From Catellatospora bangladeshensis (GTDB lineage: Bacteria; Actinomycetota; Actinomycetes; Mycobacteriales; Micromonosporaceae), in assembly GCF_016862575.1 (NCBI RefSeq), contig NZ_BONF01000005.1, positions 1 to 64,000 on the forward strand: DNA of 64,000 nt, given 5' to 3'. Position numbers and translations under genes: made by a program. The notes beneath the pieces are model-generated. The model made no database searches and was not told where the DNA came from. It saw only the letters and a program-made list of their open reading frames with translations. The number at the start of each line of letters is the position of its first letter. Within the stretch, counting starts at the first letter, position 1. Below, piece by piece: positions 9,299-29,215 of the stretch.

Positions 9299-12109
<2,811 letters not shown>

Positions 12110-12342: not shown

Positions 12343-13863
12343 GTGAGCGAGCGGAGCGAACGGGTGATCGGAGACGAGGCGCTGCGTGGGGCACCCACGT
12401 GGACCCCGAACCCGACCGAGCTGTCCGACCTGGAGCTGCTGCTGGCGGGTGCGTACGAGCCGCTCGGCGGCTTCCTGGGCCGGGAGGACCTGCGCTCGGT
12501 GGCCGCCACCGCGCGCCTGGTCGACGGCCGGGCGTGGCCGCTGCCGGTGAAGCTCGAGGTGCCCGCGGGCATGCTGGACGGTATCGACGTCGCCGACGCG
12601 CCGCCGCTGGTGCTGACCGACGCCGAGGGCGCGCCGATCGCCCGGCTCGACGTGGCCGAGGTGTGGCCCGTCCGGGAGGGCTGGTCCGGCGTCGCCGGCG
12701 AGGTCCACCGCTACGGCGACGGCGGGCGGGCCCCGTTCGCGCGCCTGCGGATGCCCACCGACGTGGTGCGGAGCCAGCTCACCGCGCAGCGTGTGCTCGG
12801 CTTCTTCGCCGACCGCCCGCTGCACCGCCCGCAGCTCGCCCAGCTCAACCACGCCGCCCGGCAGCTCAACGCGCAGCTCGTGGTGCTGGTGCCGGTCGGC
12901 GTGCCGGGGCCGGACGGGCTGCCGTCCGAGGCGCTGGTGCGCTGCGTGCTGGCCGCCCGCGACCGGATGAACGAGCCGGTCATCGTGGCCGTGCCGCTGA
13001 CCAGCCGGGGCAGCGAGGTCACCGACGCGCTGATCCGGGCCCGGGTCGCCGCCGCGTACGGCGTGACGCACCTGCTGGGCACGCCCACCACGCTCACCGG
13101 CGCGGGCCCGCGCGTGCTCATCCCGCGCGAGCTGGTCTACGACAGCCGGGACGGGCAGTGGCGCGACCGCGACGAGGTGCCCGAGCGGTTCGAGCGCATC
13201 GCGCTGACCGACGAGGAGATCGCCGGGCTGCTCGACGACGGCCTGCCGCTGCCCGAGTGGCACACCCCGCCCGCGGTGGCCCGCGAGCTGTCCAAGGCCC
13301 GCCCGCCCCGCCGCCAGCGCGGCGTGGTGCTGTTCTTCACCGGCCTGAGCGGCTCGGGCAAGTCCACGGTGTCCCGGGGCGTGGCCGACGCGCTGCTGGA
13401 GACCGGCGAGCGCAGCCTGACCGTGCTCGACGGCGACGTGGTGCGCCGCGAGCTGTCCGCCGGGCTGGGCTTCAGCAAGGCCGACCGGGACCTGAACATC
13501 CGCCGCATCGGCTGGGTGGCCGCGGAGACGGCCCGGCACGGCGGCATGGCGATCTGCTGCCCGATCGCGCCGTACGCCAGCGCGCGGGCCACGGCGCGGG
13601 CCATGGCCACGGCGGCGGGCGCGGACTTCGTGCTGGTGCACGTGGCGACGCCGCTGGAGGTGTGCGAGCAGCGCGACCGCAAGGGCCTCTACGCCCGCGC
13701 GCGGGCCGGGCAGATCACGGGGATGACCGGCATCGACGACCCGTACGAGGAGCCCACCGACGCCGAGCTGGTGATCGACACCTCGGAGGGCACCGTCGAC
13801 GACGCCGTCGAGACCGTGCTGGCCTTCCTCGGCGAAGAGGGCTGGATCAACCCGCGCAGCTGA
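12343..13863 (+). CDS. cysC: Adenylyl-sulfate kinase with a degenerate ATP-sulfurylase-like N-terminal region
   Basis: A 506-residue two-part protein. Residues ~325-506 are a complete APS kinase, which phosphorylates adenylyl sulfate to PAPS: P-loop GLSGSGKS (334-341), LDGDVVRRELSAGLGFSKADRDLNIRR, and the DPYEEP segment. Residues ~20-300 follow the layout of ATP sulfurylase (PUA-like part with GAYEPLGGFLG, then the catalytic domain), but the nucleotide-binding QxRNPxHxxH motif is replaced by ADRPLHRPQ (156-164), so sulfurylase activity is unlikely. The start is the GTG at 12343 with an AGGAG site. It lies beside a locus with two PAPS-dependent sulfotransferases, which suggests it supplies their donor. 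Confidence 0.88.
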   Translation: MSERSERVIGDEALRGAPTWTPNPTELSDLELLLAGAYEPLGGFLGREDLRSVAATARLVDGRAWPLPVKLEVPAGMLDGIDVADAPPLVLTDAEGAPIARLDVAEVWPVREGWSGVAGEVHRYGDGGRAPFARLRMPTDVVRSQLTAQRVLGFFADRPLHRPQLAQLNHAARQLNAQLVVLVPVGVPGPDGLPSEALVRCVLAARDRMNEPVIVAVPLTSRGSEVTDALIRARVAAAYGVTHLLGTPTTLTGAGPRVLIPRELVYDSRDGQWRDRDEVPERFERIALTDEEIAGLLDDGLPLPEWHTPPAVARELSKARPPRRQRGVVLFFTGLSGSGKSTVSRGVADALLETGERSLTVLDGDVVRRELSAGLGFSKADRDLNIRRIGWVAAETARHGGMAICCPIAPYASARATARAMATAAGADFVLVHVATPLEVCEQRDRKGLYARARAGQITGMTGIDDPYEEPTDAELVIDTSEGTVDDAVETVLAFLGEEGWINPRS

Positions 13864-13867
13864 AGAC

Positions 13868-13920
13868 GTTAAGAAGGGCACCTTCTACAACGCATAGCGT
13901 TAAGAAGGTGCCCTTCCTTT
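13868..13920. repeat. KGTFL palindromic repeat, copy A (bidirectional terminator)
   Basis: GAAGGGCACCTTC (13873-13885) and its reverse complement (13904-13916) lie within a ~52-bp unit also found at 26277, 32873 and 36429. It fills the gap between the convergent cysC and glycosidase genes and touches the glycosidase stop codon, so it probably terminates both. Confidence 0.85.
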
Positions 13921-16287
13921 TCAGCGGGTGTAGCCGGCGGAGGTTCCGGTGACGATGTCGAAGGCGGGGTGCCTGCTGAACTCCTGGAAGGAGCTCAGGC
14001 CCTCGCGGGTCATGTCGATCATCGAGCTGCGGCCCTCCTCGGCGCTCGGCGACTCGAAGTAGACCAGTGCCTTGAGGCGCGGGAACAGTTCGAGCTGGAG
14101 GCGGGCCGAGTCGAAGAACCTCGCCTGGTGCTGCGGGTTGCTGCGGGAGTGCCAGACACCCCACTCGCCGAGCATGAGCGGCTTGTCCGGGAAGGACTGC
14201 GCGGCCCAGTTGTAGAAGCCCGGCCAGTCCTTGCGGCTGCCCGACTTGCGGTTCATCATCTCCGCGAAGTCGCCGTAGCCGTAGCCCGGGTCGCTGTAGG
14301 CGTACGTGTCCCAGGCGACCCAGTCCACCACGTCGTCACCGGGGTACAGCTCCTCGAACCAGTCCTTGACGTTCCACGGCACGAAGGCCATGTAGCACAT
14401 CACCGAGACCAGGTTGTCCACCCCGCGGGCGCGCAGCCCGGTGACCACGTACCGGAACGCGGCGGCGTAGTCCCGGGCGGTCATCCCGGAGCCGGGCCGC
14501 GGCACGACGTCGTTCTCCGGCTCGTGGTGCATCGTGAAGAAGAACGGGTCGGTCAGCGAGCCCTTGATGTGCGCGGCGAGCCGGTCCAGGTAGGCGTCGG
14601 TGCGCCGGTCCCCGGCGGCGATGCCCGCCCAGCTCACGTTCTGCGGCTTCCAGTTCAGGAAGAGCACCCGCTTGTGCGCCGGGTCCCGCGTGATGGCCAG
14701 CTCCTCGGCGGTCGGGAAGAGCGAGGTGCCGCGGTGGTACGCGTGATAGACGACCTGGAGCCGGTTGGTGCGCCGTTCGAACTCGTGCAGCGCCTGGATG
14801 CGGTTCTGCGAGGTGTGCGCGCCCGGCGCCACGCCCCACAGCGCGCCGCAGGTCGGCACCAGGGTCCGGCCGATGACGCAGTCCACCGGCGCGTTCGGGT
14901 CCCCGCTCGGCGACGGCTCGGCCGACGGCGCGGTGGACGGGCTCGGCGGTCCGGGAGCCGGGCTCGGCTCGGCCGTGGGCGAGGCGCCGGCGCTCGGCGC
15001 CGTCGACGGGCCGGGGTCGCTCGGCGACGGGCCGGGCTCACCGGGCAGCGGGCTCGGTTCGACCGGGTCCGGGCTGGGCTCGCCGGGCAGCGGGCTTGGA
15101 TCCACCGGGCCGGGGCTCGGCTCGGTGCCGGGCTCGCCCGGGAACGGGCTCGGGTCCACGGGATCCGGGCTGGGCTCCCCGGGGAGCGGGCTCGGATCCA
15201 CCGGCTCGGCACCGGGCTCACCGGGGGCCGGGCTCGGCTCTGCCGGGCCGGTGCTCGGCTCGCCGGGACCGGGCTCCCATGGCAGCGGGTCCGGGCTCGG
15301 CTCGGTGCTCGGAGCTGGCTCCTCGGGGAACGGGTTCGGCTCCGGGGACGGGCTGGGCTGCTCACCGGGCCGCGGGCCGGGTGCGCTGGGGACCGGGCTC
15401 GGCACGTCCGGCGCGGGACCGGCTGGGTACGGGCTGGGCCGGTCCCCCGGCTGCGCGCCGGTCGGGGCGGCACTGGGCTGCGTCATGGGCGACGCGCTCG
15501 GCGACGCGCCGGTCTCCTGGCCGGAGCCGCCGGCCGGGTAGGGACTCGGCCGCACGGGCACGGACGGGGACGGCGTGCCGGTCCACGGCTGCTCGCTGGG
15601 CTCGTATCCGGAGCCCGGCCAGGGCGTGGTGCTCGGCCGCACGCCCGGCGACGCCGACGGGGTGGCCGACGGCCCGTCCACCGGCGGGGGCAGCACGGGG
15701 CGCGACGGCGGGTCCCACTCGAAGGTGATGGTCGGCGCGCCGGTGGTGCTGCCGTGGGCCTCGGCCGCGACGAAGCGGGCGGCCTCGTTGCGGAACGGCG
15801 CGGTCACCGCGAACGCGTATCGCCCGGAGCGGCGGATGACCCGGGTCACGTCGAAGGCGACCGCGCGGTCGAAGCGGCCCGGGGTGGCCCCGGCGACCAC
15901 GTCGCCCAGCCGGGGCGCGGTGCCCGCGGTGATGGTGCCCTGGTGCCACCGGGTGTCGGGCACCCGGCTCAGCTCGATGATCCCGGGCAGGGTGCCGCTG
16001 TGGCGGCCGAGCCAGAGCCAGACCTTCCGCGGCTGCTTCCCGGCCGGCATGGTGACGTCGAACTTGAGGTAGCTGACCGCGGCGCCGCCGTCGTAGCCGC
16101 CCGCGGTGAGGTAGACCTGCGTGCCCGCGGTGACACCCGGGCTGGTGCTGACGGTGTAGGAATCCTCCGACACCGGGATGCGCGCGGGCGGCGGGGTGAG
16201 CCGTCCGGCGAGCAGTCCCAGCAGCACCGCTGAGGCCAGCGTGGACATGGTTACGGTGACCGCGATGCCGACTCGGCTTCTGCCCAT
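13921..16287 (-). CDS. Secreted GH26-like glycoside hydrolase with CBM-like domain and long Pro/Ser linker
   Basis: A 788-residue exported protein: signal/anchor segment (about 5-28), a DNRLRE/CBM96-like beta domain (about 38-190; KFDV, DVTRVIRRSGRYAFAV), a ~270-residue Pro/Ser/Glu linker built of PGEPSPDPVDPSP-type repeats, then a (beta/alpha)8-type catalytic domain from about 469. In the last, HHEPEND (Glu589) and MLGEWGV (Glu708) fit the acid/base and nucleophile of GH26-type enzymes (mannanase/xylanase clan). The ATG at 16287 has GGAAGGGG upstream. Divergent from the Wzz-like gene, it probably trims or releases the exopolysaccharide made by the neighbouring locus; the exact linkage is unknown. 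Confidence 0.85.
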   Translation of the reverse strand: MGRSRVGIAVTVTMSTLASAVLLGLLAGRLTPPPARIPVSEDSYTVSTSPGVTAGTQVYLTAGGYDGGAAVSYLKFDVTMPAGKQPRKVWLWLGRHSGTLPGIIELSRVPDTRWHQGTITAGTAPRLGDVVAGATPGRFDRAVAFDVTRVIRRSGRYAFAVTAPFRNEAARFVAAEAHGSTTGAPTITFEWDPPSRPVLPPPVDGPSATPSASPGVRPSTTPWPGSGYEPSEQPWTGTPSPSVPVRPSPYPAGGSGQETGASPSASPMTQPSAAPTGAQPGDRPSPYPAGPAPDVPSPVPSAPGPRPGEQPSPSPEPNPFPEEPAPSTEPSPDPLPWEPGPGEPSTGPAEPSPAPGEPGAEPVDPSPLPGEPSPDPVDPSPFPGEPGTEPSPGPVDPSPLPGEPSPDPVEPSPLPGEPGPSPSDPGPSTAPSAGASPTAEPSPAPGPPSPSTAPSAEPSPSGDPNAPVDCVIGRTLVPTCGALWGVAPGAHTSQNRIQALHEFERRTNRLQVVYHAYHRGTSLFPTAEELAITRDPAHKRVLFLNWKPQNVSWAGIAAGDRRTDAYLDRLAAHIKGSLTDPFFFTMHHEPENDVVPRPGSGMTARDYAAAFRYVVTGLRARGVDNLVSVMCYMAFVPWNVKDWFEELYPGDDVVDWVAWDTYAYSDPGYGYGDFAEMMNRKSGSRKDWPGFYNWAAQSFPDKPLMLGEWGVWHSRSNPQHQARFFDSARLQLELFPRLKALVYFESPSAEEGRSSMIDMTREGLSSFQEFSRHPAFDIVTGTSAGYTR

Positions 16288-16545: not shown

Positions 16546-18237
16546 GTGGACGCGACATACGCCGGGCCACCCCCCTCGACGTACGACATGACCGACTACC
16601 TGGGCCTCGTCGCCCGGCACTGGTGGCTCGCCCTGCTGCTGACGCTGGCAGGCACCGCCGGCGGCGCGGCCTACAACGAGTCGCTGCCGCGCGAGTACGT
16701 CTCCACCGCCTCGGTGCTGGTGCGCCCGGCCGGGCTGGACGCCAACGTGGCCGGCGGGCGCACCCGTGACGAGATCAACCTGGACACCGAGGCCCAGCTC
16801 ATGCGCTCGACCGCCGTGGTCGCCGGGGCGGCCAAGCTGCTCCAGCGCGAGGACGTGGACACGCTGGCCGCGGCGGTGTCCGTCGAGGTGCCCGCGAACA
16901 CCGCGGTGCTCCAGATCAAGTACGCCTCGGACTCGCCCGAGCAGGCGCAGGCCGGGGCGACCGCGTTCGCCAAGTCGTACCTGGCCAACCGCGAGGGCAA
17001 CGCCAAGGCGGAGCTGAACCGGCAGGCCGACGCGCTGCGCGACAAGATCAAGGACCTGACCGAGGACCTGACGAAGATCAACGGCAAGCTGTCCGGCGTC
17101 AACCCGAAGAGTTCCAGCTACGCCACCCTGGACAGTCAGCGCGATACCACGGTCACCCAGATCAACCAGCTCAACAACAAGGTGAACCAGCTCGCGACGG
17201 AGACGGTCAGCGCGGGCGCGGTCATCCGCGAGGCCCGGGTGCCGAGCCGTCCGGTCAAGCCGACCGCGGCGGTCAACTACGCCGCCGGGGCGCTGCTCGG
17301 CCTGCTGGCCGGGCTCGGCGCGGCGGCGCTGCGCGAGCGCCTGGACCGCCGCGTCCGGGGCGGCCGGGACCTGCTGCGTAGCAGCGTCGACGTGCTGGGC
17401 GTGGTGCCCGGCAAGGGCTCGGCGTGCACCGAGGTGTTCACCCCGTTCAGTCCCGGCGGGCGGGCCTTCAACCGGCTGCGCAACGAGGTGGTGGCCGCGT
17501 TCCGGCCCGGTGAGCAGGTCGTCGTGGTCACCGGCGCGAGCCGCGGCCCGGCCGCCACCCTGGTCGCCGCGAACCTGGCCGCCGCGCTGTCGCGCACCGG
17601 GGCCGAGGTGGTCATCATCGGCGCGCAGCTGCCCGACTCGCTGACCGAGGCCGCGCCGCTGGCCAAGCTGCTCGGCGTCGCGCCCACGCCCGGCCTGTCC
17701 GACGTGCTCGCGGGCCGGGTGAGCCTGGCCGAGGCGACGCAGCGCGCGGCGCGTACCCCCTCGCTGCACGTCATCACCACCGGCGGGACCGCCACCGCCG
17801 CCGGGCTGCTGCAGTCCCACGCGCTGCGCGACATCGTGGCGACGCTGCGCGCCCACGCCGACTACCTGGTGGTCGAGGCGCCGTCCACCGCCACCAGCGC
17901 CGACGCGCAGAGCCTGGCCAGCCTCGCCGACGCGGCGATCCTCGCGGTGGAGACCCGCCGCACCCGGCGGCCCGAGGTCGCCGACGCCGCCGAGCAGCTG
18001 CGCCGGGTCGGCACCCCGCTGCTCGGCGCGGTGATGATGCCGCGCCTGTCGCACCGCGCCCGCCGCGGCGGGGACACCGTGCCCGCGACCGACGAGTCCC
18101 CGGCCCGCCCCGCCGAGGAGACGCCGGTCGACGGCAGCAGCAACGGGCACAAGCCGCACGCCGACGAGCAGACCATCATGCTGGCGCCGCTGGACGCCTC
18201 CGCGCTGACCGAACTCGACGAGGCCCAGCGCTCATGA
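16546..18237 (+). CDS. Wzz-type chain-length determinant with C-terminal BY-kinase-like domain
   Basis: A 563-residue polysaccharide co-polymerase. Two membrane segments (about 27-45 and 245-265) bracket an extracytoplasmic region with coiled-coil potential (about 150-235), as in Wzz/CapA proteins; RVPSRPVKPTAAVNY is the usual sequence before the second membrane segment. The cytoplasmic C-terminal part has the fold layout of a bacterial tyrosine kinase, but the Walker A position reads TGASRGPAAT (329-338) with no catalytic Lys-Ser/Thr, so it is probably not an active kinase. Start: GTG at 16546 (GGAGAAGG upstream; an ATG at 16588 is the alternative). It overlaps the next gene by 4 bp. Confidence 0.85.
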   Translation: MDATYAGPPPSTYDMTDYLGLVARHWWLALLLTLAGTAGGAAYNESLPREYVSTASVLVRPAGLDANVAGGRTRDEINLDTEAQLMRSTAVVAGAAKLLQREDVDTLAAAVSVEVPANTAVLQIKYASDSPEQAQAGATAFAKSYLANREGNAKAELNRQADALRDKIKDLTEDLTKINGKLSGVNPKSSSYATLDSQRDTTVTQINQLNNKVNQLATETVSAGAVIREARVPSRPVKPTAAVNYAAGALLGLLAGLGAAALRERLDRRVRGGRDLLRSSVDVLGVVPGKGSACTEVFTPFSPGGRAFNRLRNEVVAAFRPGEQVVVVTGASRGPAATLVAANLAAALSRTGAEVVIIGAQLPDSLTEAAPLAKLLGVAPTPGLSDVLAGRVSLAEATQRAARTPSLHVITTGGTATAAGLLQSHALRDIVATLRAHADYLVVEAPSTATSADAQSLASLADAAILAVETRRTRRPEVADAAEQLRRVGTPLLGAVMMPRLSHRARRGGDTVPATDESPARPAEETPVDGSSNGHKPHADEQTIMLAPLDASALTELDEAQRS

Positions 18238-19688
18238 CCGTGGTCGCCCGCGCCGCGGTCCGCACCCCGGCGCAGCCGGGCGACGCCGTGCCCCCGCCCC
18301 TGGCCGCCGGGCCGGCCGGGCGGGTCCGGCGGCTGCTCGGGCCGGCCTGGCCGCTGACCGCCCTGCTCGCGCTCTATCCGCTGTGGTGGGCGCTCGGGCT
18401 CGGCGTGCTGATCTTCCCGATCATGGCGGTGCCCATGGCGTGGCAGCTGTTCCGCCGCCACGCGTCGGGCATGCCGGTCCGGCTGCCCCCGGCGTTCTGG
18501 CTGTGGCTGGTCTTCTGCGGCGTGGCCGTGGCCGGGTTCGCCGTGCTCGACGTGGACCCGGCGGGCACGGTGCCCGCCTCGTTCGGTGAGCGGATCACCG
18601 CGCCCACCTACAAGCTCGGCCAGTACGCCGCGCTGACCGTGCTGCTGGTGTACGCGGGCAACCTGTCCCCGGCCGTGCTGTCGCAGCGGCGGCTGGTGAA
18701 CCTGCTCGGCTGGCTGTTCGCGGTGACCGTGGCGGGCGGGCTGCTCGGCACGTTCGCCGGGCACTTCGAGTTCACCTCGCCGGTGGAGATGTTGCTGCCG
18801 GACGGCGTACGCGGCAAGGGCTTCGTGAAGTCGCTGGTCCACCCGTACGCGGCGCAGATCATGGAGCTGGTCGGCGATCCGGCGCCGCGCCCGGCCGCGC
18901 CGTGGGGCTACACGAACACCTGGGGCAACAACTTCTGCCTGCTGGTGGTGTGGTTCGCGGTGGCCGTGTTCGGCTACCCGACCCGCACCCGGGACCGGGT
19001 GCTGGCGATCGGGCTGCTGGCCGTGTCCGTGGTGCCGGTGGTGCACTCGCTCAACCGCGGCCTGTGGATCGGCCTGGGCGCGGCGGCGGTGTACGTCGCC
19101 GTGCGCCAGGCGCTGGCCGGGCGCGTCCGGGCGCTGGCCGCGCTGGGCGTGGTGCTGGCCGGGCTGGCCGTGGCGCTGGTCGCGACCCCGCTGGGCGGGG
19201 TGATCGAGCGGCGGCTGGACAACGGCAAGTCCAACGGGGTGCGCATGTTCCTCACCGAGCACGCGGTCGCGGGCTTCCAGGAGTCGCCGGTGCTCGGCTT
19301 CGGCTCGACGCGCAACACGCAGGGCGGCCGGCAGTCGATCGCGGTCGGCGAGTCGGCGGCCTGCGAGCGCTGCGGCAACTTCACCGTCGGCGGCAACGGC
19401 CAGCTGTGGCAGCTGCTGTTCGCGCACGGCGCGGCGGGCACCCTGGCCTACTTCGGCTTCTTCGGGTACGGGCTGTGGCGCTTCCGGCGGGACCGCTCGG
19501 CGATCGGGCTGGCCGCGTCGGCCGCGATCGTGGGCTCGTTCCTCGCGGCGCTCTGGTACAACTCGCTCGTCACGCCGCTGGCCTTCACCTTCCTGGGATA
19601 TGTGCTGCTGTGGCGCAACTCCCGCTTCCAGATCGTGTCCCGCTCCGTTGAGCCCCTGGGACATAACGGACACCAGCGGAGGAGCTGA
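18234..19688 (+). CDS. O-antigen ligase/polymerase-like membrane protein (Wzy-like)
   Basis: A 484-residue protein with about ten to twelve predicted membrane helices and a large extracytoplasmic loop (about 325-385, containing ESPVLGFGSTRNTQGG), the usual shape of the O-antigen ligase (Wzy/WaaL) family. In a Wzx/Wzy pathway the polymerase joins lipid-linked repeat units outside the membrane. The position between a chain-length protein and a flippase supports polymerase rather than ligase. ATGA overlap with the preceding gene indicates coupled translation. Confidence 0.82.
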   Translation: MTVVARAAVRTPAQPGDAVPPPLAAGPAGRVRRLLGPAWPLTALLALYPLWWALGLGVLIFPIMAVPMAWQLFRRHASGMPVRLPPAFWLWLVFCGVAVAGFAVLDVDPAGTVPASFGERITAPTYKLGQYAALTVLLVYAGNLSPAVLSQRRLVNLLGWLFAVTVAGGLLGTFAGHFEFTSPVEMLLPDGVRGKGFVKSLVHPYAAQIMELVGDPAPRPAAPWGYTNTWGNNFCLLVVWFAVAVFGYPTRTRDRVLAIGLLAVSVVPVVHSLNRGLWIGLGAAAVYVAVRQALAGRVRALAALGVVLAGLAVALVATPLGGVIERRLDNGKSNGVRMFLTEHAVAGFQESPVLGFGSTRNTQGGRQSIAVGESAACERCGNFTVGGNGQLWQLLFAHGAAGTLAYFGFFGYGLWRFRRDRSAIGLAASAAIVGSFLAALWYNSLVTPLAFTFLGYVLLWRNSRFQIVSRSVEPLGHNGHQRRS

Positions 19689-19689
19689 C

Positions 19690-19767
19690 GTGCGCGAGAG
19701 CATGGGCGAACCGACCACCGGGCTCCACCGCCGGACGGCCACGGCGTGCGGCGAGGTGGCCGCGTGA
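19690..19767 (+). CDS. Possible 25-codon coupling ORF between wzy-like and kinase genes
   Basis: A GTG 2 bases after the wzy-like stop, preceded by a very good ribosome site (GGAGGAG), opens a 25-codon frame whose TGA overlaps the next start (GTGA at 19764-19767). It may serve only to carry ribosomes to the kinase gene. The peptide has no recognisable motif, and the reading could be chance. Confidence 0.35.
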   Translation: MRESMGEPTTGLHRRTATACGEVAA

Positions 19768-21020: not shown

Positions 21021-21056
21021 GACGGGGCACGCCCCACCCATACGCATGGAGAGCAA

Positions 21057-21929
21057 GTGAAGACGTCGAACGTGCCGGAGTCGGTCAAGCGGGTCGTGCA
21101 CATCGGATCCCGCTCGGTCGGCTGGATGACCGCGGGCGCGCGCATGCTGCCGTCGTTCCTGATCTGCGGCGGGCAGCGCTGCGGCACGACCTCGCTCTAC
21201 CGGGCGCTCGCCGCGCACCCCGCGATCCTGAAAGCGGTGCTGCACAAGGGCGTGCACTACTTCGACACCAGCTACCACCGGGGCGGGGCCTGGTATCGGG
21301 GGCACTTCCCGCTGCGGCGCACCGCCGCCCGGGTCGAGCGCGAGCTGGGCGTGCCCCCGCAGACGTTCGAGTCCAGCCCGTACTACCTGTACCACCCGCA
21401 CGCCGGTGCGCGGATGGCCCGCGACCTGCCCGGCATCAAGGTGATCGTGCTGGTGCGCGACCCGGTGGAGCGGGCCTACTCGCAGCACGCGCACGAGGTG
21501 GCGCGCGGCTTCGAGACGGTGAGCGACTTCGCGCAGGCGCTGGACCTGGAGCCGGCCCGGCTGCGCGGGCAGCGCGAGCGGCTGCTCGCCGACGAGCACG
21601 CGTACTCCTTCTCGCACCAGCACCACGGCTACCGCTCGCGCGGCGAGTACGCCGTCTACCTGCGCCGGATGGCCGAGCATGTGGGCCGGGAGCGGATGCT
21701 GGTGGTGGAGAGCGAGCGCTTCTTCACCGACCCGAAGCCGGTGTACGACAGCGTGCTGGCGTTCCTCGGGCTGCCGCACCTGAGCTACCCCGAGTTCGAG
21801 CAGCACAACGCCCGCCCGCGCAGCGCGCCGATGCCCGCCCGGCTGCGCGCCGAACTGGTCGCGCACTACGCCCCGCACGACACGGCGCTGGCCGAGTGGC
21901 TGGGCCGTACGCCGAGCTGGCGCGCGTGA
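21057..21929 (+). CDS. PAPS-dependent sulfotransferase (heparan-sulfotransferase-like)
   Basis: A 290-residue cytoplasmic sulfotransferase. The 5'-phosphosulfate loop is GGQRCGTTSL (38-47) and the 3'-phosphate site is VIVLVRDPVERAYSQH (Arg134, Ser142), both typical of the sulfotransferase family that acts on carbohydrates. The conserved KGVHYFD and ESSPYYL segments resemble heparan/heparin N- and O-sulfotransferase-like proteins. It sits in a tight run of polysaccharide genes and its stop overlaps the next GTG (GTGA). It probably sulfates a sugar residue using PAPS from CysC. Confidence 0.9.
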   Translation: MKTSNVPESVKRVVHIGSRSVGWMTAGARMLPSFLICGGQRCGTTSLYRALAAHPAILKAVLHKGVHYFDTSYHRGGAWYRGHFPLRRTAARVERELGVPPQTFESSPYYLYHPHAGARMARDLPGIKVIVLVRDPVERAYSQHAHEVARGFETVSDFAQALDLEPARLRGQRERLLADEHAYSFSHQHHGYRSRGEYAVYLRRMAEHVGRERMLVVESERFFTDPKPVYDSVLAFLGLPHLSYPEFEQHNARPRSAPMPARLRAELVAHYAPHDTALAEWLGRTPSWRA

Positions 21930-23533
21930 CCGGCCCGATCACCACCGCCCCCGGCCCGGTCATCCCGGCGCAGGCGGCGCCCGCCCCGGCCGACGGGGCC
22001 GCGAGCCTGTCCGGCTTCGCCCGGGGCGGCGTGGCCAACCTGGCCGGGGCGGCGCTCGCGGCGGTGGCCGGGGTCGGCGTGACCTGGCTCGTCGCGCGCG
22101 GGCTCGGCCCGCACGCCGCCGGCTCCTTCTTCGCCGCGACAGCCGCGTTCGTGCTGGTCGGCGGGTTCGCCCGGCTCGGCACGACGACCGCGCTGGTGTA
22201 CTGGCCCGCCCGGCTGCGCGCGCTGGGCAGGCCCGAGCTGATCGGCCCGTGCCTGCGCAGCGGCCTGGTCCCGGTCGCCGTGCTCGGCGTCGCGCTGGGC
22301 GTGGCGGTCTGGCTCGGCGCGGCCCGGTTCGTGCCGGACTACGCCGCGCCGCTGGCCGCGCTGGCGCTGTTCCTGCCGGTCGTGGCGCTGTCCGAGGCGC
22401 TGCTGGCGGCCACCCGGGGCTATCGCATGATGCGGCCGACCGTGCTGCTGGAGAAGATCATGCGCCCCGCCGTGCAGCTGCTCTTCGTGGGCGGCCTGGC
22501 CGTGGCCGCGCTGCTGTCGGGCACCGGCGCCGCCGCGCAGACCTGGGCGCTGGCCTGGGTGCTGCCGTACGTGCCGGTCGCCGCGATCGCCGGGTTCCTG
22601 GTCTGGCGCAAGTGGCACCACGAGCCCACGATGACCCGCAGCGAGCGGTCCGCCGCCCGCATCGAGGGCCGCCCGGTCGCGGGCGCGTTCTGGCGGTACA
22701 CCGCCCCGCGCGCGCTGGCCAACGCCGCGCAGACCGCGCTGCAGCGGGTCGACGTGCTCATGGTCGCCGGGCTCGCCGGCCTCGCTCCGGCCGCCGCGTA
22801 CGCCGTCGCGGGACGCTTCGTCGTGCTCGGACAGCTCGCCAACGGCTCCATCGCGCAGGTCGTGCAGCCGAGGCTGGCCGAGACGCTGGCCGTCGGCGAC
22901 CACGCGGGCGCGCTGCGGCTCTACCAGACCGCCACCGCCTGGCTCGTGCTCATCAGCTGGCCGCTGCACCTGGTCGTGGCCACCTACGCCGACCTGTACC
23001 TGGGGCTGTTCGGGCCCTCGTACACCTCCGCCGCGCCCGCGGTGCGGGTGCTGGCCGCCGCGATGCTGATCAGCACCGGCTGCGGCATGGTCGACATGGT
23101 GCTGTCCATGGCCGGGCGCACCACCTGGAACCTGATGAACGTGCTGCTGGCGCTGGCCACCATGGTCTGCATCGACCTGCTGACCATCCCGCACCTGGGC
23201 GTGCTGGGCGCGGCGATCGGCCTGGCCGCCGCGGTCGCGGTCAACAACCTGCTGCCGCTGGCGCAGCTGTCCGGCTCGCTGCGGCTGCACCCGTTCGGCA
23301 CCGGTACGCGTACCGCGATGGCGCTCGCCGCCACCAGCTTCGGCGTGCTGCCCTGGCTGGTCCGCCTGGTCGTGCCCAGCCAGCCCGTCGGCGCCGGGGC
23401 CGCCCTCGTCCTGGCCACCGGCGTCTACCTCGGCGGCCTGCGCCGCTACCACGACCGGCTCGGGCTCCGGGCGCTGCTCAAGGCCGCCCGCCCCGGCCGC
23501 CGCAACACCGACCAGGCCGCTACCCAGGGGTAG
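21926..23533 (+). CDS. Polysaccharide flippase (Wzx/MATE-like)
   Basis: A 535-residue polytopic protein with about twelve to fourteen helices and the layout of the polysaccharide-biosynthesis (MOP/Wzx) exporters, including the central pair of basic segments (WRKWHHEP, TRSERSAARIEGRP) between the two halves and ALQRVDVLMVAGLAG at the start of the second half. It would flip lipid-linked repeat units across the membrane. The GTG at 21926 overlaps the sulfotransferase stop. Confidence 0.87.
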   Translation: MTGPITTAPGPVIPAQAAPAPADGAASLSGFARGGVANLAGAALAAVAGVGVTWLVARGLGPHAAGSFFAATAAFVLVGGFARLGTTTALVYWPARLRALGRPELIGPCLRSGLVPVAVLGVALGVAVWLGAARFVPDYAAPLAALALFLPVVALSEALLAATRGYRMMRPTVLLEKIMRPAVQLLFVGGLAVAALLSGTGAAAQTWALAWVLPYVPVAAIAGFLVWRKWHHEPTMTRSERSAARIEGRPVAGAFWRYTAPRALANAAQTALQRVDVLMVAGLAGLAPAAAYAVAGRFVVLGQLANGSIAQVVQPRLAETLAVGDHAGALRLYQTATAWLVLISWPLHLVVATYADLYLGLFGPSYTSAAPAVRVLAAAMLISTGCGMVDMVLSMAGRTTWNLMNVLLALATMVCIDLLTIPHLGVLGAAIGLAAAVAVNNLLPLAQLSGSLRLHPFGTGTRTAMALAATSFGVLPWLVRLVVPSQPVGAGAALVLATGVYLGGLRRYHDRLGLRALLKAARPGRRNTDQAATQG

Positions 23534-23579
23534 CGGGGCAAACGCACCGAGTACGAACAGAAAAGGACCACGAACCAGC

Positions 23580-24332
23580 ATGCGCGCCGACTACACCGAG
23601 ATCTTCCAGGACGAGGCGACGGTCGAGAAGTACGAGCACGTCGTATACGCCCCGGACAGCTATTCCTCGGCGATAAATCGGCGCCAGCGCGCCTACCTGC
23701 GGCGCCTGGCCAAACGGGCGTTCCCCTACCGGCGCCCGGTGCAGCACGACTTCGCCTGCGGCACCGGCCGCGCCATCCGCATCCTGCACGGGCTGGTCCG
23801 CGGCGCGCACGGCTACGACACGTCGGCCGCGATGCTGTCCAAGGCCGAGGAGGTCGGCGCGTACGCCGAACTGCACCTGGTCGAGGCCGCGGGCGAGGTG
23901 CCCGAGCCCGCCCCCACCGAGATCCCGGCCCTGGTCACCATCTTCCGGCTGCTGCTCAACGTGGACAACGAGGTGCGCGAGCGGGCCATCGCGTTCGGCG
24001 CGAAGGTGCTGCCCAACTACGACGCCGGGCTGCTCGTGGTGGAGAACCACGGCAACCGCCACTCGCTGCGCCACCTGCGCCACCAGCGGCACGCGGGCTC
24101 GCCGTGGTTCGCCGAGCTGGACCACACCGAGGTCGCCGAGCTGCTCGACCGGCACGGCTTCACCATCGTCGAGCAGCGCGGCTTCGCACTGTTCACGCAG
24201 GGCTGGTACGGCCGCCGCGGGCTGCGCACCCTGGCCCGCCTCGTGGACGACCTCGTCGCCCGCACCGGCTGGGGCGGCACCTGGGCCGTGAACGTGCTCT
24301 ACGTCGCCCGGCGCACCCGGAACGTCGACTGA
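23580..24332 (+). CDS. Class I SAM-dependent methyltransferase
   Basis: A 250-residue methyltransferase. Motif I is HDFACGTGRA (residues 56-65), followed by GYDTSAAML (motif II) and ALVTIFRLLLNV (post II). It would methylate a sugar or polymer end in the exopolysaccharide pathway; the acceptor is unknown. AAAAGGA upstream of the ATG at 23580 serves as ribosome site. It is one base before the lipoprotein glycosidase gene and clearly co-transcribed. Confidence 0.85.
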   Translation: MRADYTEIFQDEATVEKYEHVVYAPDSYSSAINRRQRAYLRRLAKRAFPYRRPVQHDFACGTGRAIRILHGLVRGAHGYDTSAAMLSKAEEVGAYAELHLVEAAGEVPEPAPTEIPALVTIFRLLLNVDNEVRERAIAFGAKVLPNYDAGLLVVENHGNRHSLRHLRHQRHAGSPWFAELDHTEVAELLDRHGFTIVEQRGFALFTQGWYGRRGLRTLARLVDDLVARTGWGGTWAVNVLYVARRTRNVD

Positions 24333-24333
24333 C

Positions 24334-25359
24334 ATGCCGGTCGGCCGAGGCGGCGCAGCGGGCCGCCTGCTGCGGATCCTGTCCGGGGTGGCCGCCGTGG
24401 CTCTGCTGGCCACGTGCGGCTCCCCGCCCCGGGCCGACCGGGGCATCGCGGTCGCCCCGTCCGGGCCCGCCGGCACCCGCCCGCCGCTGGCCTCCGGCGG
24501 CCCGGTCGCCGCGCCGCCGTCCGGAGCGCTGCTCGGGGCCTGGGTGCGGCCGGCGAGCCTCACCCAGGCCGGGCGGGTCACCGGCGTGCTGGACTTCGAG
24601 CGCGACCTCGGCCGCAGGCTGGACATCGTGCACACGTACCGGCGGCTGCGCGAGGAATTCGGCACCAGCTCCGACCGGACCTTCCTCAAATCCGGCGCCA
24701 CCCTGATGTTCAGCTGGACCGGCGGCCCCAGCGCCGAGGTGCTGCTCGGCGAGCACGACGAGCTGATCCGCGAACGTGCCCGCCAGTCCCGCGACCTGGG
24801 CACGCCTGTGCTGCTCCGGCTCCGCTGGGAGATGGACCGCCCCAACCTGCTCGCCGAGGTCGGCTCCCCCGACGAGTACGTCGCCGCCTGGCGGCACACC
24901 CGCGAGCTTTTCGCCGCCGAGGGCGCGGACAACGTCTCCTGGGTCTGGTGCCCCACCGAGCAGGGCTTCGCCACCGGCCGCGCCCAGGACTTCTACCCCG
25001 GCGACGACCAGGTCGACTGGACCTGCGCCGACGTCTACGCCGGCAGCACCCTGACCCCCATCGCCGACCTCCTGGAGCCCTTCCTCCACTGGGCCGCCGC
25101 CCGCCCCCACCCCATCATGATCGGCGAGTACGGCGTCTCCCGCGCCTGGACCGCCCCCCAGCGCGCCGACTGGCTCTCCGCCGCCCACCACGTCTTCCGC
25201 ACCAACACCCAGATCAAAGCGGTCCTCTACTTCGAATCCAACCCCGACAACCGCACCCCCGCCGGCGAGTTCGCCCTCCGCCCCGACCCCACCCCCTTCG
25301 CCGCCTTCCACACCACCGCCCACGACCCCTGGTTCAACCCCCACCCCGAACCCCGTTGA
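24334..25359 (+). CDS. GH26-like glycoside hydrolase lipoprotein
   Basis: A 341-residue exported lipoprotein: lipobox LATC (Cys28), a Pro/Ala-rich tether, and a single GH26-like (beta/alpha)8 domain from about residue 65. LRLRWEMD (Glu166) and MIGEYGV (Glu265) fit the acid/base and nucleophile positions. It is a shorter relative of the glycosidase at 13921-16287, sharing the W-x-(A/C)-D-x-Y and ALVYFES/AVLYFES signatures, but without linker or CBM. As last gene of the plus-strand run it may process the polymer at the cell surface. Confidence 0.83.
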   Translation: MPVGRGGAAGRLLRILSGVAAVALLATCGSPPRADRGIAVAPSGPAGTRPPLASGGPVAAPPSGALLGAWVRPASLTQAGRVTGVLDFERDLGRRLDIVHTYRRLREEFGTSSDRTFLKSGATLMFSWTGGPSAEVLLGEHDELIRERARQSRDLGTPVLLRLRWEMDRPNLLAEVGSPDEYVAAWRHTRELFAAEGADNVSWVWCPTEQGFATGRAQDFYPGDDQVDWTCADVYAGSTLTPIADLLEPFLHWAAARPHPIMIGEYGVSRAWTAPQRADWLSAAHHVFRTNTQIKAVLYFESNPDNRTPAGEFALRPDPTPFAAFHTTAHDPWFNPHPEPR

Positions 25360-25500: not shown

Positions 25501-25556
25501 ATGAGCTGGCGATCATGAGGCGGTGGGCGGCACCCCGCGCCCACGGAGACAGTTCT

Positions 25557-26156
25557 TCAGCGGGCGAGCAGGTCCGCCGGGTCGAAGTCGGCGGCGAAAG
25601 GCTCCGCCATCTGCATACGCTGGCCGGACACTGCCCGGGTGACCAGCTCATACCGGCCGTCGACCAGGCGGCGCAGCTCCACCACGGCGAGATCCCGGGC
25701 GTCGTCGAGCTCGACGGTCATGAACCAGGCGATGCCCTGCTGCAGGCAGGCGGCGGGCTTGTTGACGTGGTCCCGCCGCACGCTCGACGGGCTGACGAAC
25801 TCGACCACCATCACGCAGTGCTCGGCAGCCACCCAGGTGCCGCGCTGCGGGCTGTCCAGCACCGTCAGATCCGGCTGGATCCAGCGGTCGAGCGCACCCA
25901 TCGTCAGGGTGACCGTGCCGTAGACGTAGTAGCCGGCTTCCCGTGCGCCTGCGCGAAACGCCGCAGCCAGCTCGATCGCACCGTATGAATTGCGTGCGGC
26001 CTCGTATGGAGACATGAACAGTTTCCCGTCCCAGCACTCGTACTTCACCAGAGGAAGTCCCGGGATGGGCAGGTAGCGCTCGGCCACCTCGACGGTCCAC
26101 ATGCCATCAAGATCGATCAACGGATCGAACGGGTGGCCACTCTCCACGTCCGTCAC
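25557..26156 (-). CDS. Uma2-family (DUF820) putative nuclease
   Basis: A 199-residue protein of the Uma2 family with a PD-(D/E)xK-type core: PDLTVLD (Asp96), VVEFVSPSS (Glu119) and RRDHVNKP (Asp129, Lys133). The family is widespread and often multicopy in actinobacteria and cyanobacteria; the biological role is not settled, though the fold is that of restriction-type nucleases. It is on the opposite strand inside the exopolysaccharide region and its DNA looks somewhat less GC-rich than its neighbours, suggesting later insertion. Confidence 0.85.
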   Translation of the reverse strand: MTDVESGHPFDPLIDLDGMWTVEVAERYLPIPGLPLVKYECWDGKLFMSPYEAARNSYGAIELAAAFRAGAREAGYYVYGTVTLTMGALDRWIQPDLTVLDSPQRGTWVAAEHCVMVVEFVSPSSVRRDHVNKPAACLQQGIAWFMTVELDDARDLAVVELRRLVDGRYELVTRAVSGQRMQMAEPFAADFDPADLLAR

Positions 26157-26276: not shown

Positions 26277-26329
26277 GTTAAGAAGGGCACCTTCCTCTAC
26301 GAATAGCGTTAAGAAGGTGCCCTTCCTTA
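26277..26329. repeat. KGTFL palindromic repeat, copy B
   Basis: Same unit as at 13868. It starts directly at the TAA stop of the TagA-type gene (26327-26329), consistent with a terminator role. Confidence 0.85.
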
Positions 26330-27133
26330 CTTGCGGCGGAGGGCGGAGGTGGCGAGGAGGCGGGCGGCGTAGGGGAGGTCGTGGACGAGGTAGCGGCCGG
26401 CCAGGCGGCCGGGCTCCTGGGCCAGGCGGTGGGCCCACTCGAGGCCGCTGCGCTGCATCCAGATGGGGGCGCGGTGCAGCTCGCCGGCGACGAAGCCGAT
26501 GGCCGCGCCGCAGCCGATGAACCAGCTGAACGGCAGCTCGGCGCGCAGGTCCGAGATGACGCGCTCCTGCTTGGGGAAGCCGAGGCCGACGAAGACGAAG
26601 TCGGGCTTGGCCTCGATCACGTCGGTGTACACCTGCGCGCACGTCTCCGGGTCGAGGTCGAACCCGAACGGCGGCGCGACCTGACCGGCGATGCGCAGCC
26701 CGGGGCACCCGGCGGCGAGCACGGAGGCGGCCTTGACCGCGCCGTCCATGCCGGTCTCGTCGGCGGGCGAGCCGCCGAGCAGGTAGACGGAGCGGCGGGC
26801 CCGGCCGAGGGCGGCGCTGAGGGTCCAGATGAGACCGGAGCCGGTCACCCGTTCGGGGAGCGGGGTGCGGGCGAGCCTGCTGGCCCAGACCAGCGGCATG
26901 CCGTCGGCGACCACGAGCGTGGCGTCCTCCAGGAAGCCGCGCACCTCGGCGGCGCGCACCCCGCGGCCGGTGGCCAGCCGCATGATGTCGACGTTCGGGG
27001 TGAGGATGCGGCCGCCGTCGCCGCGTTCGAGCGCGGCGAGCACCCGGTCGGCCACGGTCTCCTCGGTGACCGCGTCGAACCAGGTGCCGGCGAGGCGGAC
27101 CCGGCGGCCATAGACAGTCCCCGTAAAAGACAC
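26327..27133 (-). CDS. WecG/TagA/CpsF-family glycosyltransferase
   Basis: A 268-residue membrane-associated glycosyltransferase that transfers a sugar (typically N-acetylmannosamine or its acid) to a lipid-linked primer. Signatures: TPNVDIMRLA (from residue 45), VADGMPLVW (Asp77), YLLGGSP, VGLGFPKQE, and the C-terminal ERxAP-like stretch RAPIWMQRSGLEWAHRLAQE. The start is uncertain; I use the GTG at 27133, giving family-like length, but it lacks a ribosome site and a TATTGT box a few bases upstream makes a leaderless transcript possible. It is divergent from the second sulfotransferase. Confidence 0.87.
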   Translation of the reverse strand: MSFTGTVYGRRVRLAGTWFDAVTEETVADRVLAALERGDGGRILTPNVDIMRLATGRGVRAAEVRGFLEDATLVVADGMPLVWASRLARTPLPERVTGSGLIWTLSAALGRARRSVYLLGGSPADETGMDGAVKAASVLAAGCPGLRIAGQVAPPFGFDLDPETCAQVYTDVIEAKPDFVFVGLGFPKQERVISDLRAELPFSWFIGCGAAIGFVAGELHRAPIWMQRSGLEWAHRLAQEPGRLAGRYLVHDLPYAARLLATSALRRK

Positions 27134-27218
27134 GAAATCAGACAATACAGACCAAGTAGGCGGTTCGGTCGTTATGCCGTACGAGCGCGTCACGCCGTGG
27201 CGCGGCAGTGGGGGATGT

Positions 27219-28181
27219 ATGGCAACCAGGGTTCTCTTCGTCGGTGGGCTGGGCCGTAGCGGCACGACCCTGATCGAGCGGGTGCTGGGCGAGCTGCCCG
27301 GCGTCTGCGCCCTGGGCGAGATCGTCCATCTCTGGCAGCGCGACGTACGCGACGACGAGCGCTGCGGCTGCGGCGACCGGTTCAGCCGCTGCGACTTCTG
27401 GCAGCGCGTCGGGCACGCCGCGTTCGGCGGCTGGCACCGGGTCGACGTACACCGCATCCTGGCCCTGCGCGACCTGGTCGAGCGCACCCGGCACATCCCG
27501 CGGCTGGCCGGCTCGGCCCGCCTGGTCGGCGACTTCACCGCGCTGGTCACCGAGTACGCCGGCTACTACGCGAAGATCTACGCCGCGGCGGCCACCGTGT
27601 CCGAGGCGAACGTGGTGATCGACTCGTCCAAGCACAGCGCGCTGGCGCACTGCCTGCGCTGGTCGGACGAGGTGGACCTGCGCGTGCTGCACGTGGTGCG
27701 GGACGCGCGCGGCGTGGCGTACTCCTGGACCAAGACGGTGTCCCGGCCGGAGACCGACGGCTCCGAGGAGATGACCCGCTACGCGCCGACCCGCAGCGCG
27801 CTGCTGTGGAACGCGCACAACGCCGCGTTCGGGCTGCTGCGGCGGCGGGGCGTACCGGTGCGCCGGGTGCGCTACGAGGAGTTCCTGGCCCGGCCGCGCA
27901 ACACGGTGCGCCGGGTCGCCGCGTTCATGGGCATGGACCCGTCCGTGATGGACCTGGGTTTCCTGCACGACGACGCCGTCGAGCTGTCCCGCGGCCACAG
28001 CGCCGCGGGCAACCCGATGCGCTTCACGGTCGGGCGCATCGAGCTGCGCCGCGACGACGCCTGGCGGCGGCAGCTCCCGCCGCGCCAGCGCGCCCTGGTC
28101 GGGGCCGTCTGCGCGCCGCTGCTGCGGGCGTACGGCTACCCGCTGAGCAGCAACGCCGAGATCGTAGGAGCGCACCGATGA
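27219..28181 (+). CDS. PAPS-dependent sulfotransferase, second copy
   Basis: A 320-residue sulfotransferase with a 5'-phosphosulfate loop GGLGRSGTT (9-17) and 3'-phosphate site VLHVVRDARGVAYSW (Arg161, Ser169). A cluster of cysteines (CGCGDRFSRCDF, 49-60) resembles the sulfotransferase subgroup that carries a CxCG insertion. I use the ATG at 27219, with GGGGG five bases upstream. It is only distantly similar to the sulfotransferase at 21057, so two different positions may be sulfated. It overlaps the next gene by 4 bp. Confidence 0.88.
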   Translation: MATRVLFVGGLGRSGTTLIERVLGELPGVCALGEIVHLWQRDVRDDERCGCGDRFSRCDFWQRVGHAAFGGWHRVDVHRILALRDLVERTRHIPRLAGSARLVGDFTALVTEYAGYYAKIYAAAATVSEANVVIDSSKHSALAHCLRWSDEVDLRVLHVVRDARGVAYSWTKTVSRPETDGSEEMTRYAPTRSALLWNAHNAAFGLLRRRGVPVRRVRYEEFLARPRNTVRRVAAFMGMDPSVMDLGFLHDDAVELSRGHSAAGNPMRFTVGRIELRRDDAWRRQLPPRQRALVGAVCAPLLRAYGYPLSSNAEIVGAHR

Positions 28182-29215
28182 AGCTCAAGACCAACAGCGG
28201 ACGGTTCGACGGCAGCCGGGGCGCGCGCCCGGCGGCGGCCACGGCGCACCCGTCCGCCACGACCGGCACCGCCGTGCTCGGCGAGACGCCCGGCTCACGC
28301 GACTGGCCCGCCGTCGGCGTGGTCATCCCCACCCGCAACCGCCCGGAGCTGCTGCGCAAAGCCCTGGATGCGGTACGCGCACAGGACTACCCCGGGCCGC
28401 TGCGCGTGCTCGTGGTCTTCGACCAGGCCGAGCCGGACCCGTCGCTCGCCGCCGACGGCGGGCGGCCGGTGCTGGTGGTGGCCAACGCGCGCCAGGCCGG
28501 GCTGGCCGGGGCGCGCAACACCGGCATCACCGCGCTGGACACCGAGCTGGTCGCGTTCTGCGACGACGACGACGTCTGGCACCCCGCCAAGCTGCGCCGC
28601 CAGGTGGACGCGCTGGTGCGTACGCCCGCCGCGCAGTTCTCGACGTGTGCGATCGAGGTGGAGTTCGAGGGAGCCGCGCACCCGCGGCTGGCCGGGACCG
28701 ACCTGGTGACCGTGGACCACCTAGCGCGCAGCCGGATGTCGATGCTGCACTCGTCGGGCTTCCTCGCCCGGCGCGAGGCGCTGCTGGCGGACGGGGCGAT
28801 CGGGCCGGTCTCCGAGGACGCGCCCGGCAGCCAGAACGAGGACTGGGACCTGCTGCTGCGGGCCGCCCGGCGGCACCCGATCGTGCACGTGGACGAGCCG
28901 CTGGTGCGGGTGCTCTGGGGGCGCAGCAGCTTCTACGCGTACGAGTACGCCACGAAGATCTCGTCGTTGCGCTGGATGATGGCCCGCCACCCGGAGATCT
29001 CCGGCTGCCGCCCCGGCGCGGCCCGGGTCTACGGCCAGCTCGCCTGCTGGTCGGCCGCGGCCGGCGACCGCCGCCAGGCCTGGCGCTGGACCCGGGAGAC
29101 CGTCCGCAACAACTGGCGCGAACCCCGCGCCGCCATCGCCTTGGCCGCCCTCACCGGCGCCGTCAAGGTGGAGACCGTCCTGACGGCGCTGCACCGCCGC
29201 GGCCACGGCATCTGA
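28178..29215 (+). CDS. Family 2 glycosyltransferase
   Basis: A 345-residue GT-A glycosyltransferase. The first ~45 residues are low in order; then VGVVIPTRNRPELLRKAL (from 47), the metal/nucleotide motif CDDDDVW (128-134), and the acceptor-side EDWDLLLRA. It would add a sugar to the lipid-linked repeat unit. The ATG overlaps the sulfotransferase stop (ATGA), so the two are translated together. Confidence 0.88.
   Translation: MKLKTNSGRFDGSRGARPAAATAHPSATTGTAVLGETPGSRDWPAVGVVIPTRNRPELLRKALDAVRAQDYPGPLRVLVVFDQAEPDPSLAADGGRPVLVVANARQAGLAGARNTGITALDTELVAFCDDDDVWHPAKLRRQVDALVRTPAAQFSTCAIEVEFEGAAHPRLAGTDLVTVDHLARSRMSMLHSSGFLARREALLADGAIGPVSEDAPGSQNEDWDLLLRAARRHPIVHVDEPLVRVLWGRSSFYAYEYATKISSLRWMMARHPEISGCRPGAARVYGQLACWSAAAGDRRQAWRWTRETVRNNWREPRAAIALAALTGAVKVETVLTALHRRGHGI

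Follow-up and report, generated by a model that had tools for sequence, protein, structure and literature searches.

A Catellatospora counterpart of the wps-1 cluster, predicted to make a sulfated polysaccharide beside an APS kinase gene

Sulfated polysaccharides have so far been described in cyanobacteria and marine bacteria. Among actinomycetes, the closest described system is the wps-1 cluster of Actinoplanes missouriensis, which consists of 11 genes and has a sulfurylase/adenosine 5'-phosphosulfate (APS) kinase gene, AMIS_7390, adjoining its wzz gene (PMC13390465, June 2026). According to the text of that report, a sulfated exopolysaccharide is proposed as the product, which is predicted and not shown, and all genes of the cluster except wpsD, the loss of which had no effect, were judged necessary for normal sporangium formation. 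Deletion of wpsH or AMIS_7390 severely impaired sporangia, the wpsH mutant having the squashed sporangia of the whole-cluster mutant; the severe defect of the AMIS_7390 mutant was called "unexpected", the enzyme being described by the reaction that it carries out in the synthesis of sulfur amino acids (PMC13390465). The present analysis concerns a similar locus in Catellatospora bangladeshensis, located in a 64,000-nucleotide window at the start of a 357-kb contig (NZ_BONF01000005.1) in a draft genome of 8.83 Mb. The genes considered include two for sulfotransferases (St1 and St2), an APS kinase fusion (CysC) and a set resembling the flippase (Wzx), polymerase (Wzy) and co-polymerase (Wzz) of exopolysaccharide pathways.

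Compared with the published domain list, the Catellatospora locus contains 10 of the 11 gene kinds of wps-1 together with the counterpart of AMIS_7390, in the same order (PMC13390465). This common order, also noted in other Actinoplanes loci among the named loci described below, is glycosyltransferase family 2 (GT2), sulfotransferase, GT26, variable slot, glycoside hydrolase family 26 (GH26), methyltransferase, Wzx, heparan-sulfate-type sulfotransferase, kinase-like protein, Wzy, Wzz and sulfurylase/APS kinase, and the inferred product is the same for both. Differences were found in the variable slot between GH26a and WecG, which holds a Uma2-like open reading frame (ORF) in Catellatospora as opposed to DUF4262 (wpsD) in A. 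missouriensis, and in the position of the gene for a second GH26 protein with a CBM96 domain, which is between CysC and Wzz here and beyond CysC in the Actinoplanes loci that show it. Because it matches wps-1 in kind and order, the locus is a further member of a kind already known, which was reported in June 2026 from a related bacterium. Thus, synthesis of a sulfated exopolysaccharide through Wzx and Wzy, as put forward in a first-pass annotation of the window, is a well supported prediction, but not a new one, since the same was proposed for wps-1 (PMC13390465). All gene kinds named in that annotation, including two distinct sulfotransferases (one matching Sulfotransfer_1/3, the other Sulfotransfer_3), were found by gene calls, made from codon usage and ORF lists, and by Pfam and NCBIfam; a conserved APH-like protein had not been named there, and what had been called an APS kinase is the kinase part of a fusion with a PUA/ATP-sulfurylase-like region.

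Similar combinations of genes are known from two more distant systems. Synechan, the sulfated exopolysaccharide of Synechocystis PCC 6803, depends like the product predicted here on Wzx/Wzy-type machinery and two sulfotransferases, although the synechan (xss) cluster has eight glycosyltransferases together with regulators of its own (XssQ/R/S), and "APS kinase" goes unmentioned in the available text (PMC13125312). In the capsule cluster of Vibrio sp. KMM 8419, for which the structure of the sulfated polymer is reported, cysC (with cysND) and sulfotransferases lie inside the polysaccharide cluster as in the present locus, but the text describes ABC-transporter export and dedicated second copies of cysNDC, as opposed to the single family-core APS kinase of Catellatospora (PMC11641403).

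The most satisfactory explanation of the whole, and one that we consider likely, is that the locus is the Catellatospora version of wps-1 and makes a predicted sulfated polysaccharide with 3'-phosphoadenosine 5'-phosphosulfate (PAPS) from the neighbouring APS kinase. The sulfation, the order of the steps, the identity of the sugars and any role in Catellatospora are matters that we infer, as follows. A short lipid-linked repeat, primed by an enzyme encoded elsewhere, would be lengthened by WecG and GT2. In the cytosol, St1 and St2 would sulfate this repeat, which would also be methylated there and might receive phosphate from the APH-like protein. Wzx would flip the repeat, Wzy would polymerise it under the control of Wzz, and the two GH26 enzymes would trim or release the polymer outside the cell. 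CysND would supply APS, from which the neighbouring APS kinase would form PAPS, the sulfurylase domain of CysC being a non-catalytic and probably structural or regulatory part. The product would probably be a sulfated polysaccharide in the matrix or envelope of spores or aerial structures and would not be peculiar to sporangia.

Conservation of the locus was evident from a scan of named genomes, in which 288 St1 relatives were found and the best 80 kept (the named loci), and from 20 neighbourhoods (one each from 20 genomes) in 18 other genera picked for having St1; these two sets overlap partly in their organisms, so that totals over all 100 do not represent independent cases. The four genes for Wzz, Wzy, APH and St1 occurred together, more often than chance would allow, in all 20 neighbourhoods and in nearly all of the 80 named loci, the nearest of which were from Catellatospora (St1 identity of 91-83%). 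Among the 80 named loci, Wzx was found in 79, St1 in 78 (after an overlap filter), Wzz and Wzy in 77 each, APH in 76, WecG and GH26a in 71 each, GT2 in 70, St2 in 70 (direct search), the methyltransferase in 69, CysC in 66 (64 of the 71 loci longer than 20 kb), GH26b in 61 and the Uma2-like ORF in 1. Frequent loss of St2, suggested by a count of 52 of 80, was rejected as a result of the overlap filter; the 10 named loci without St2 were short or had no St2-GT2 pair within reach. The genera represented were Catellatospora, Catelliglobosispora, Rhizocola, Hamadaea, Allorhizocola, Asanoa, Virgisporangium, Phytohabitans, Actinoplanes and genera split off from it, Couchioplanes, Dactylosporangium, Pseudosporangium, Longispora, Pilimelia, Spirilliplanes, Planosporangium, Phytomonospora, Stackebrandtia (a metagenome-assembled genome) and others. 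To our knowledge, several of these genera form no sporangia, so the locus is seemingly not tied to sporangia, and Catellatospora itself is not known to form them, which is a difference from A. missouriensis.

Linkage to CysC, which the first-pass annotation had proposed to compare across the family, was largely conserved. Of 97 family genomes (those with a listed St1 match, weaker unlisted matches being left out), 71 had CysC and St1 no more than 20 kb apart. Of 13 CysC neighbourhoods without a complete locus, 9 were bordered by the phosphoenolpyruvate carboxylase gene (PEPC) and, at the opposite end, by IDH; 3 had the DeoR/GalT/IDH side only, and 1 contig was too short. Since these borders flank CysC where the locus is missing, the locus lies within an older framework, PEPC-CysC-[locus]-DeoR/GalT-IDH. 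Two of these 13 neighbourhoods had single pieces of it beside CysC, namely St2 and GT2 in L201 (9240-13400) and a 53% identical St1 relative with the motif RDGVSFFD in L203 (9198-12100). The retention of these pieces may point to loss of the locus.

Table 1. Genes of the locus and of its chromosomal borders in the window (counterparts are those of wps-1; sub-cut-off, below the cut-off of the model).
Feature	Position	Strand	Evidence	Remark
PEP carboxylase (PEPC)	9299..12109	+	Pfam	left border of chromosomal framework, outside pathway
CysC, ATP-sulfurylase-like + APS kinase fusion, 499 aa	12364..13863	+	Pfam PUA_2, ATP-sulfurylase (16-118 of 212), APS_kinase	
GH26b, CBM96 + Pro-rich linker + GH26-like glycanase, probably exported	13921..16287	-	ATG at 16287; Pfam	
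Wzz-type co-polymerase with BY-kinase-like domain	16588..18237	+	sub-cut-off Pfam Wzz/GNVR, NCBIfam kinase; motif counts; synteny	WpsK counterpart
Wzy-type polymerase	18234..19688	+	Pfam Wzy_C 3.3e-6, sub-cut-off; synteny	WpsJ counterpart
APH/kinase-like protein	19764..21020	+	WHGDWAPWN, WDWE motifs by eye; motif conservation	WpsI counterpart
St1, heparan-sulfate-type sulfotransferase	21057..21929	+	Pfam, PDB sequence, AlphaFold model, Foldseek	WpsH counterpart
Wzx-type flippase	21896..23533	+	TIGR02900 8e-8, sub-cut-off; synteny	WpsG counterpart
S-adenosylmethionine (SAM)-dependent methyltransferase	23580..24332	+	Pfam Methyltransf_23/25, sub-cut-off; synteny	WpsF counterpart
GH26a glycanase, N-terminal signal-like sequence (by eye)	24334..25359	+	Pfam GH26; PDB endoglucanase H	WpsE counterpart
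Uma2-like ORF	25557..25901	-	Pfam Uma2, sub-cut-off; 1/80 named loci	probably outside system
WecG/TagA/CpsF (GT26) glycosyltransferase	26327..27133	-	Pfam 1.9e-49	WpsC counterpart
St2, Sulfotransfer_3 protein	27174..28181	+	Pfam 1.3e-12; in 70/80 named loci	WpsB counterpart
GT2 glycosyltransferase	28178..29215	+	Pfam 5.5e-20	WpsA counterpart
DeoR regulator + GalT	29450..31206	+	Pfam	right border of framework

From wzz to gh26a (16588-25359), genes overlap or are separated by gaps of at most 75 bases, a spacing that fits one transcription unit, and st2 and gt2 overlap by four bases. A flippase, a polymerase and a co-polymerase are encoded side by side, as in a Wzx/Wzy pathway, with profile matches that are weak and synteny that is strong. 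Thus, Pfam scores were 25.2 bits against a cut-off of 25.5 for Wzz, 27.4 against 31.7 for Wzy_C and 23.3 against 27 for the methyltransferase, whereas that of GH26a (26.9) exceeded the cut-off of 20.2; GH26b scored 38.1 against 26 for CBM96 (E 1.8e-9) and 19.9 against 20.2 for GH26 (E 5e-4). Searches of Wzx and the APH-like protein gave no Pfam match even at E 10, and the TIGR02900 match of Wzx in NCBIfam was far under the cut-off of that model. The H, G, D, W and N of the APH motif were kept in 98 of 99 aligned sequences, the other having a gap. In the kinase-like domain of Wzz, the four residues most often seen at Walker A positions of 95 family sequences did not include Lys; a Wzz without the Walker A Gly-Lys-Ser/Thr is, as judged from its motifs, a pseudo tyrosine kinase, unlike the autokinase of the bacterial tyrosine kinase type (Wzc). 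The nearest solved proteins to GH26a were chains of endoglucanase H (2.8e-16 in PDB), which we take to be a GH26 lichenase, and other GH26 enzymes matched weakly. Both GH26 proteins kept two Glu of catalytic type (89/89 and 93/93 sequences, with some cross-hits between the two). A priming glycosyltransferase, which the first-pass annotation had suggested looking for in the flanking genome, was represented by four PF02397 proteins on other contigs; no PF02397 match was found on the contig of the window, and primers of the PF00953 type were not searched.

Sequence and predicted structure were in agreement for St1, which matched Sulfotransfer_1 and Sulfotransfer_3 (E 1.5e-12 and 1.7e-12). In a Foldseek search with an AlphaFold model of St1 (pLDDT 89.5, 36 sequences), rank 1 was the bacterial sulfotransferase 3rnl, ranks 2-21 were human heparan sulfate 3-O- and N-sulfotransferases (TM 0.63-0.69) and ranks 22-50 were tyrosyl-protein, polyketide-type and other sulfotransferases (TM 0.34-0.43). 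By sequence and predicted fold, St1 therefore groups with the heparan sulfate 3-O- and N-sulfotransferases. The heparan sulfate enzymes (1t8t, 6xkg, 3uan and 1nst) have the fold, the PAPS loops and the HFFD...WYR stretch in common with St1 but differ in the residue two before His, which is Glu in those enzymes (KExHFFD) as opposed to Gly in St1 (KGVHYFD). This Glu is the catalytic base of heparan sulfate sulfotransferases. In an alignment, the position of the Glu of human 3-OST-3A1 was occupied by Gly in St1, and Gly was found there in 50 of 50 and then 100 of 100 retrieved St1 sequences from the family (some organisms twice). An origin of this Gly in one clade was considered and rejected, as the 34 Gly tips of a 49-sequence tree were not monophyletic (branch supports unexamined). 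The residue varied among the 26 loci of the phylum scan other than that of the window, 12 having Gly (including the second copy in the same genome), 11 Glu, 2 Gln and 1 Thr. Two St1 relatives with the motifs KEVHFFD and KGVHYFD lie close together, at 7074 and 11016, in L247 from a distant actinobacterium.

The uniform Gly in family St1 sequences is the main argument for an alternative that we regard as unlikely, in which St1 is non-catalytic or acts differently, only St2 or neither sulfates, and the polymer is unsulfated or less sulfated. In conflict with this alternative, the PAPS-site motifs of St1 are kept (LVRDPVERA nearly invariant and GGQRCGTTSLY nearly so), deletion of wpsH reproduced the phenotype of the whole-cluster mutant in A. 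missouriensis (PMC13390465), and Gly recurs in several separate branches, mostly beside Wzy and Wzx where examined. Because of this recurrence, Gly looks like a tolerated active-site change and not like decay. The Glu-to-Gly change in St1 would lend itself to a clean test of the identity of the base in this fold.

The two parts of CysC differed in the conservation of their motifs. The APS-kinase half keeps the P-loop GLSGSGKST and the DGD, CPIAPY and KGLYARAR motifs; the G, K, S and T of the P-loop and DGD were present in 41 of 41 retrieved sequences and the KGLY stretch in 38-40, and the kinase motifs were likewise kept in a set of 77 retrieved sequences. In the N-terminal domain, DRPLHRPQ corresponds to QTRNPMHRAH of solved sulfurylases, QxRNP having lost its Gln and Asn and HxxH its second His. 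The motif QxRNPxHxxH is the catalytic motif of ATP sulfurylase. The altered motif is itself strongly conserved, with P, L, H, R, P and Q of DRPLHRPQ invariant in 41 of 41 sequences and the residues of DRPLHRPQLA present in 73-76 of 77. CysC scored 408.5 against a cut-off of 669 with the NCBIfam model for bifunctional sulfurylase/kinase. Its nearest solved protein, by sequence (E 3e-88) and by Foldseek (for which ranking only the CysC model served, with a mean pLDDT of 70 and a poor N-domain), was 3CR8, the two-domain hexameric APS kinase of Thiobacillus denitrificans. Domain order is the same and the sulfurylase motif is altered in both, but FADRPLHRPQ of CysC has departed further than WQARQPMHRAQ of 3CR8 and is nearly invariant in the family. 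By its title, 3CR8 is an APS kinase without sulfurylase activity, and the sulfurylase-like domain of the Entamoeba APS kinase is likewise described as non-functional (PMC6715247). With the sulfurylase motif lost and the APS-kinase motifs kept, CysC is best read as a PAPS maker fed with APS by CysND. Loss of the motif could also explain the "unexpected" sporangium defect of the AMIS_7390 mutant, as the gene would supply the sulfate donor and not cysteine synthesis.

Under another explanation, CysC truly has both ATP sulfurylase and APS kinase activity, its active site being unusual, and the locus makes PAPS from sulfate unaided. The strong conservation of the N-domain motif, the lack of a CysD match in the draft genome of the window and the description of AMIS_7390 by its sulfurylase step (PMC13390465) are consistent with such an enzyme, which is nevertheless improbable given the missing catalytic residues and the presence of CysD-type matches (PF01507, judged from match length and range) in 49 of 51 sampled family genomes, the exceptions being the genome of the window and G033. 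One or two such matches were also found in 9 of 11 genomes of the genus, all but the genome of the window, in which the only PF01507 match is CysH by its neighbours, and the draft G109. With the ATP-sulfurylase profile PF01747, CysC was matched in 50 of 51 family genomes, and otherwise only three marginal sub-cut-off places were noted. True loss of ATP sulfurylase from the genome of the window is unlikely; since the closest genome, G051 (one contig), has two CysD-type matches and the copies in drafts G087 and G100 are less than 700 bases from a contig end, a collapsed repeat is likely though not proven.

The suggestion in the first-pass annotation that the locus has its own PAPS supply was overstated. 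CysC was the only APS-kinase match in the genome at E 1e-15, but it is a family-core gene at a chromosomal site shared with the locus. A supply private to the locus was rejected, as CysC was found in 149 of 150 sampled family genomes and, where the locus is absent, near PEPC and/or DeoR/GalT/IDH. Further Sulfotransfer_3 matches were present in the genome (C8, C29, C13 with two, and C25), and thus PAPS is not used by the locus alone.

When started at the upstream ATG at 27174, which is necessary for the protein to include the PAPS loop, St2 matched Sulfotransfer_3 (E 1.3e-12). An NCBIfam search of St2 gave no match. DSSKH and VRDxRGVAxSW were kept in 88 retrieved sequences (Gly in 86). Solved relatives of St2 were weak (E 5e-4 with a single sequence and 6.6e-7 with a profile), the best being polyketide sulfotransferase domains. 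Thus, of the two enzymes that the first-pass annotation had wished to see compared with those acting on small metabolites or lipids, St1 falls with heparan sulfate sulfotransferases and St2 has these weak matches. A surface sulfolipid as the product, with the cluster decorating a glycolipid or a small glycan linked to lipid and not a polymer, for which the polyketide-type relatives of St2 and the presence of only two glycosyltransferases in the locus might be cited, is very unlikely given the conservation of Wzy, Wzz and two glycanase-like proteins and the kinship of St1 to polysaccharide sulfotransferases.

Several points weigh against the reading of the locus as a wps-1 counterpart that makes a sulfated polysaccharide with PAPS from CysC. 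The sulfated product is a prediction, as it is in the A. missouriensis report, and the match to A. missouriensis draws on the published domain list, gene order and other Actinoplanes loci (PMC13390465). Knock-out phenotypes are those of A. missouriensis only, and the mutant in wpsB, the counterpart of St2, had normal-looking sporangia with about tenfold fewer released spores according to the same text. The labels of Wzx, Wzy, Wzz, the methyltransferase and the APH-like protein come from weak profiles or none, together with synteny. With the catalytic Glu absent, the activity of St1 is uncertain, and the weak solved relatives of St2, polyketide-type at best, point to no definite substrate class. 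CysC, besides its near-universal presence in the family, which makes it not locus-specific, was unlinked from St1 in 26 of 97 genomes (68 kb-5 Mb apart on the same contig in 13 and on different contigs in 13), and the PF01507 search found no CysD in the draft genome of the window.

A wider history can be offered tentatively, with more doubt than confidence. An old actinobacterial sulfated-polysaccharide system at the PEPC-CysC-[locus]-DeoR/GalT-IDH site may have been kept in much of Micromonosporaceae and apparently lost in others (e.g., group g4, taken as Micromonospora), with a glutamate-less St1 fold and a dead sulfurylase domain kept as an allosteric part, the polymer being a spore-coat or aerial matrix glycan in bacteria without sporangia. 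Searches of the literature on sulfated polysaccharide of Micromonosporaceae and on polysaccharide of Catellatospora gave nothing relevant. If the predicted sulfation of the product is confirmed, such polymers would be normally present in a large group of soil actinomycetes.

A second, diverged module was noted in the same genome (L102, C13:37720-57719, at 5874-19572). Its genes are those for a GH26b-like protein, GT2, St2, an Alg14-like protein (by eye), Wzz, Wzy, APH, St1, Wzx and GH26a, with identities to the locus of 54% for St1, 38% for Wzy and 36% for Wzx, and no CysC or WecG match was found within its 20 kb. Two St1 matches at E 1e-20 were present in 8 of 11 genomes of the genus. At E 1e-60, St1 relatives were found in 23 genomes of a phylum sample of 396, including two (G000 and G003) from the family of the window. 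Wzy and Wzx were found beside the St1 relative in 10 of 13 neighbourhoods from the phylum list (L243-L247, L249-L252 and L254, the last from the family of the window), whereas L248, L253 and L255 were without this pair. Distant relatives of the module, as recognised from these gene sets, occur in other Actinomycetota.

Rfam and tRNA scans of the window found nothing. Elsewhere in the window, two gene sets resembling peptide-type ABC transporters (by their translation starts) are present on opposite strands at 38259-43881 and 61301-63946.

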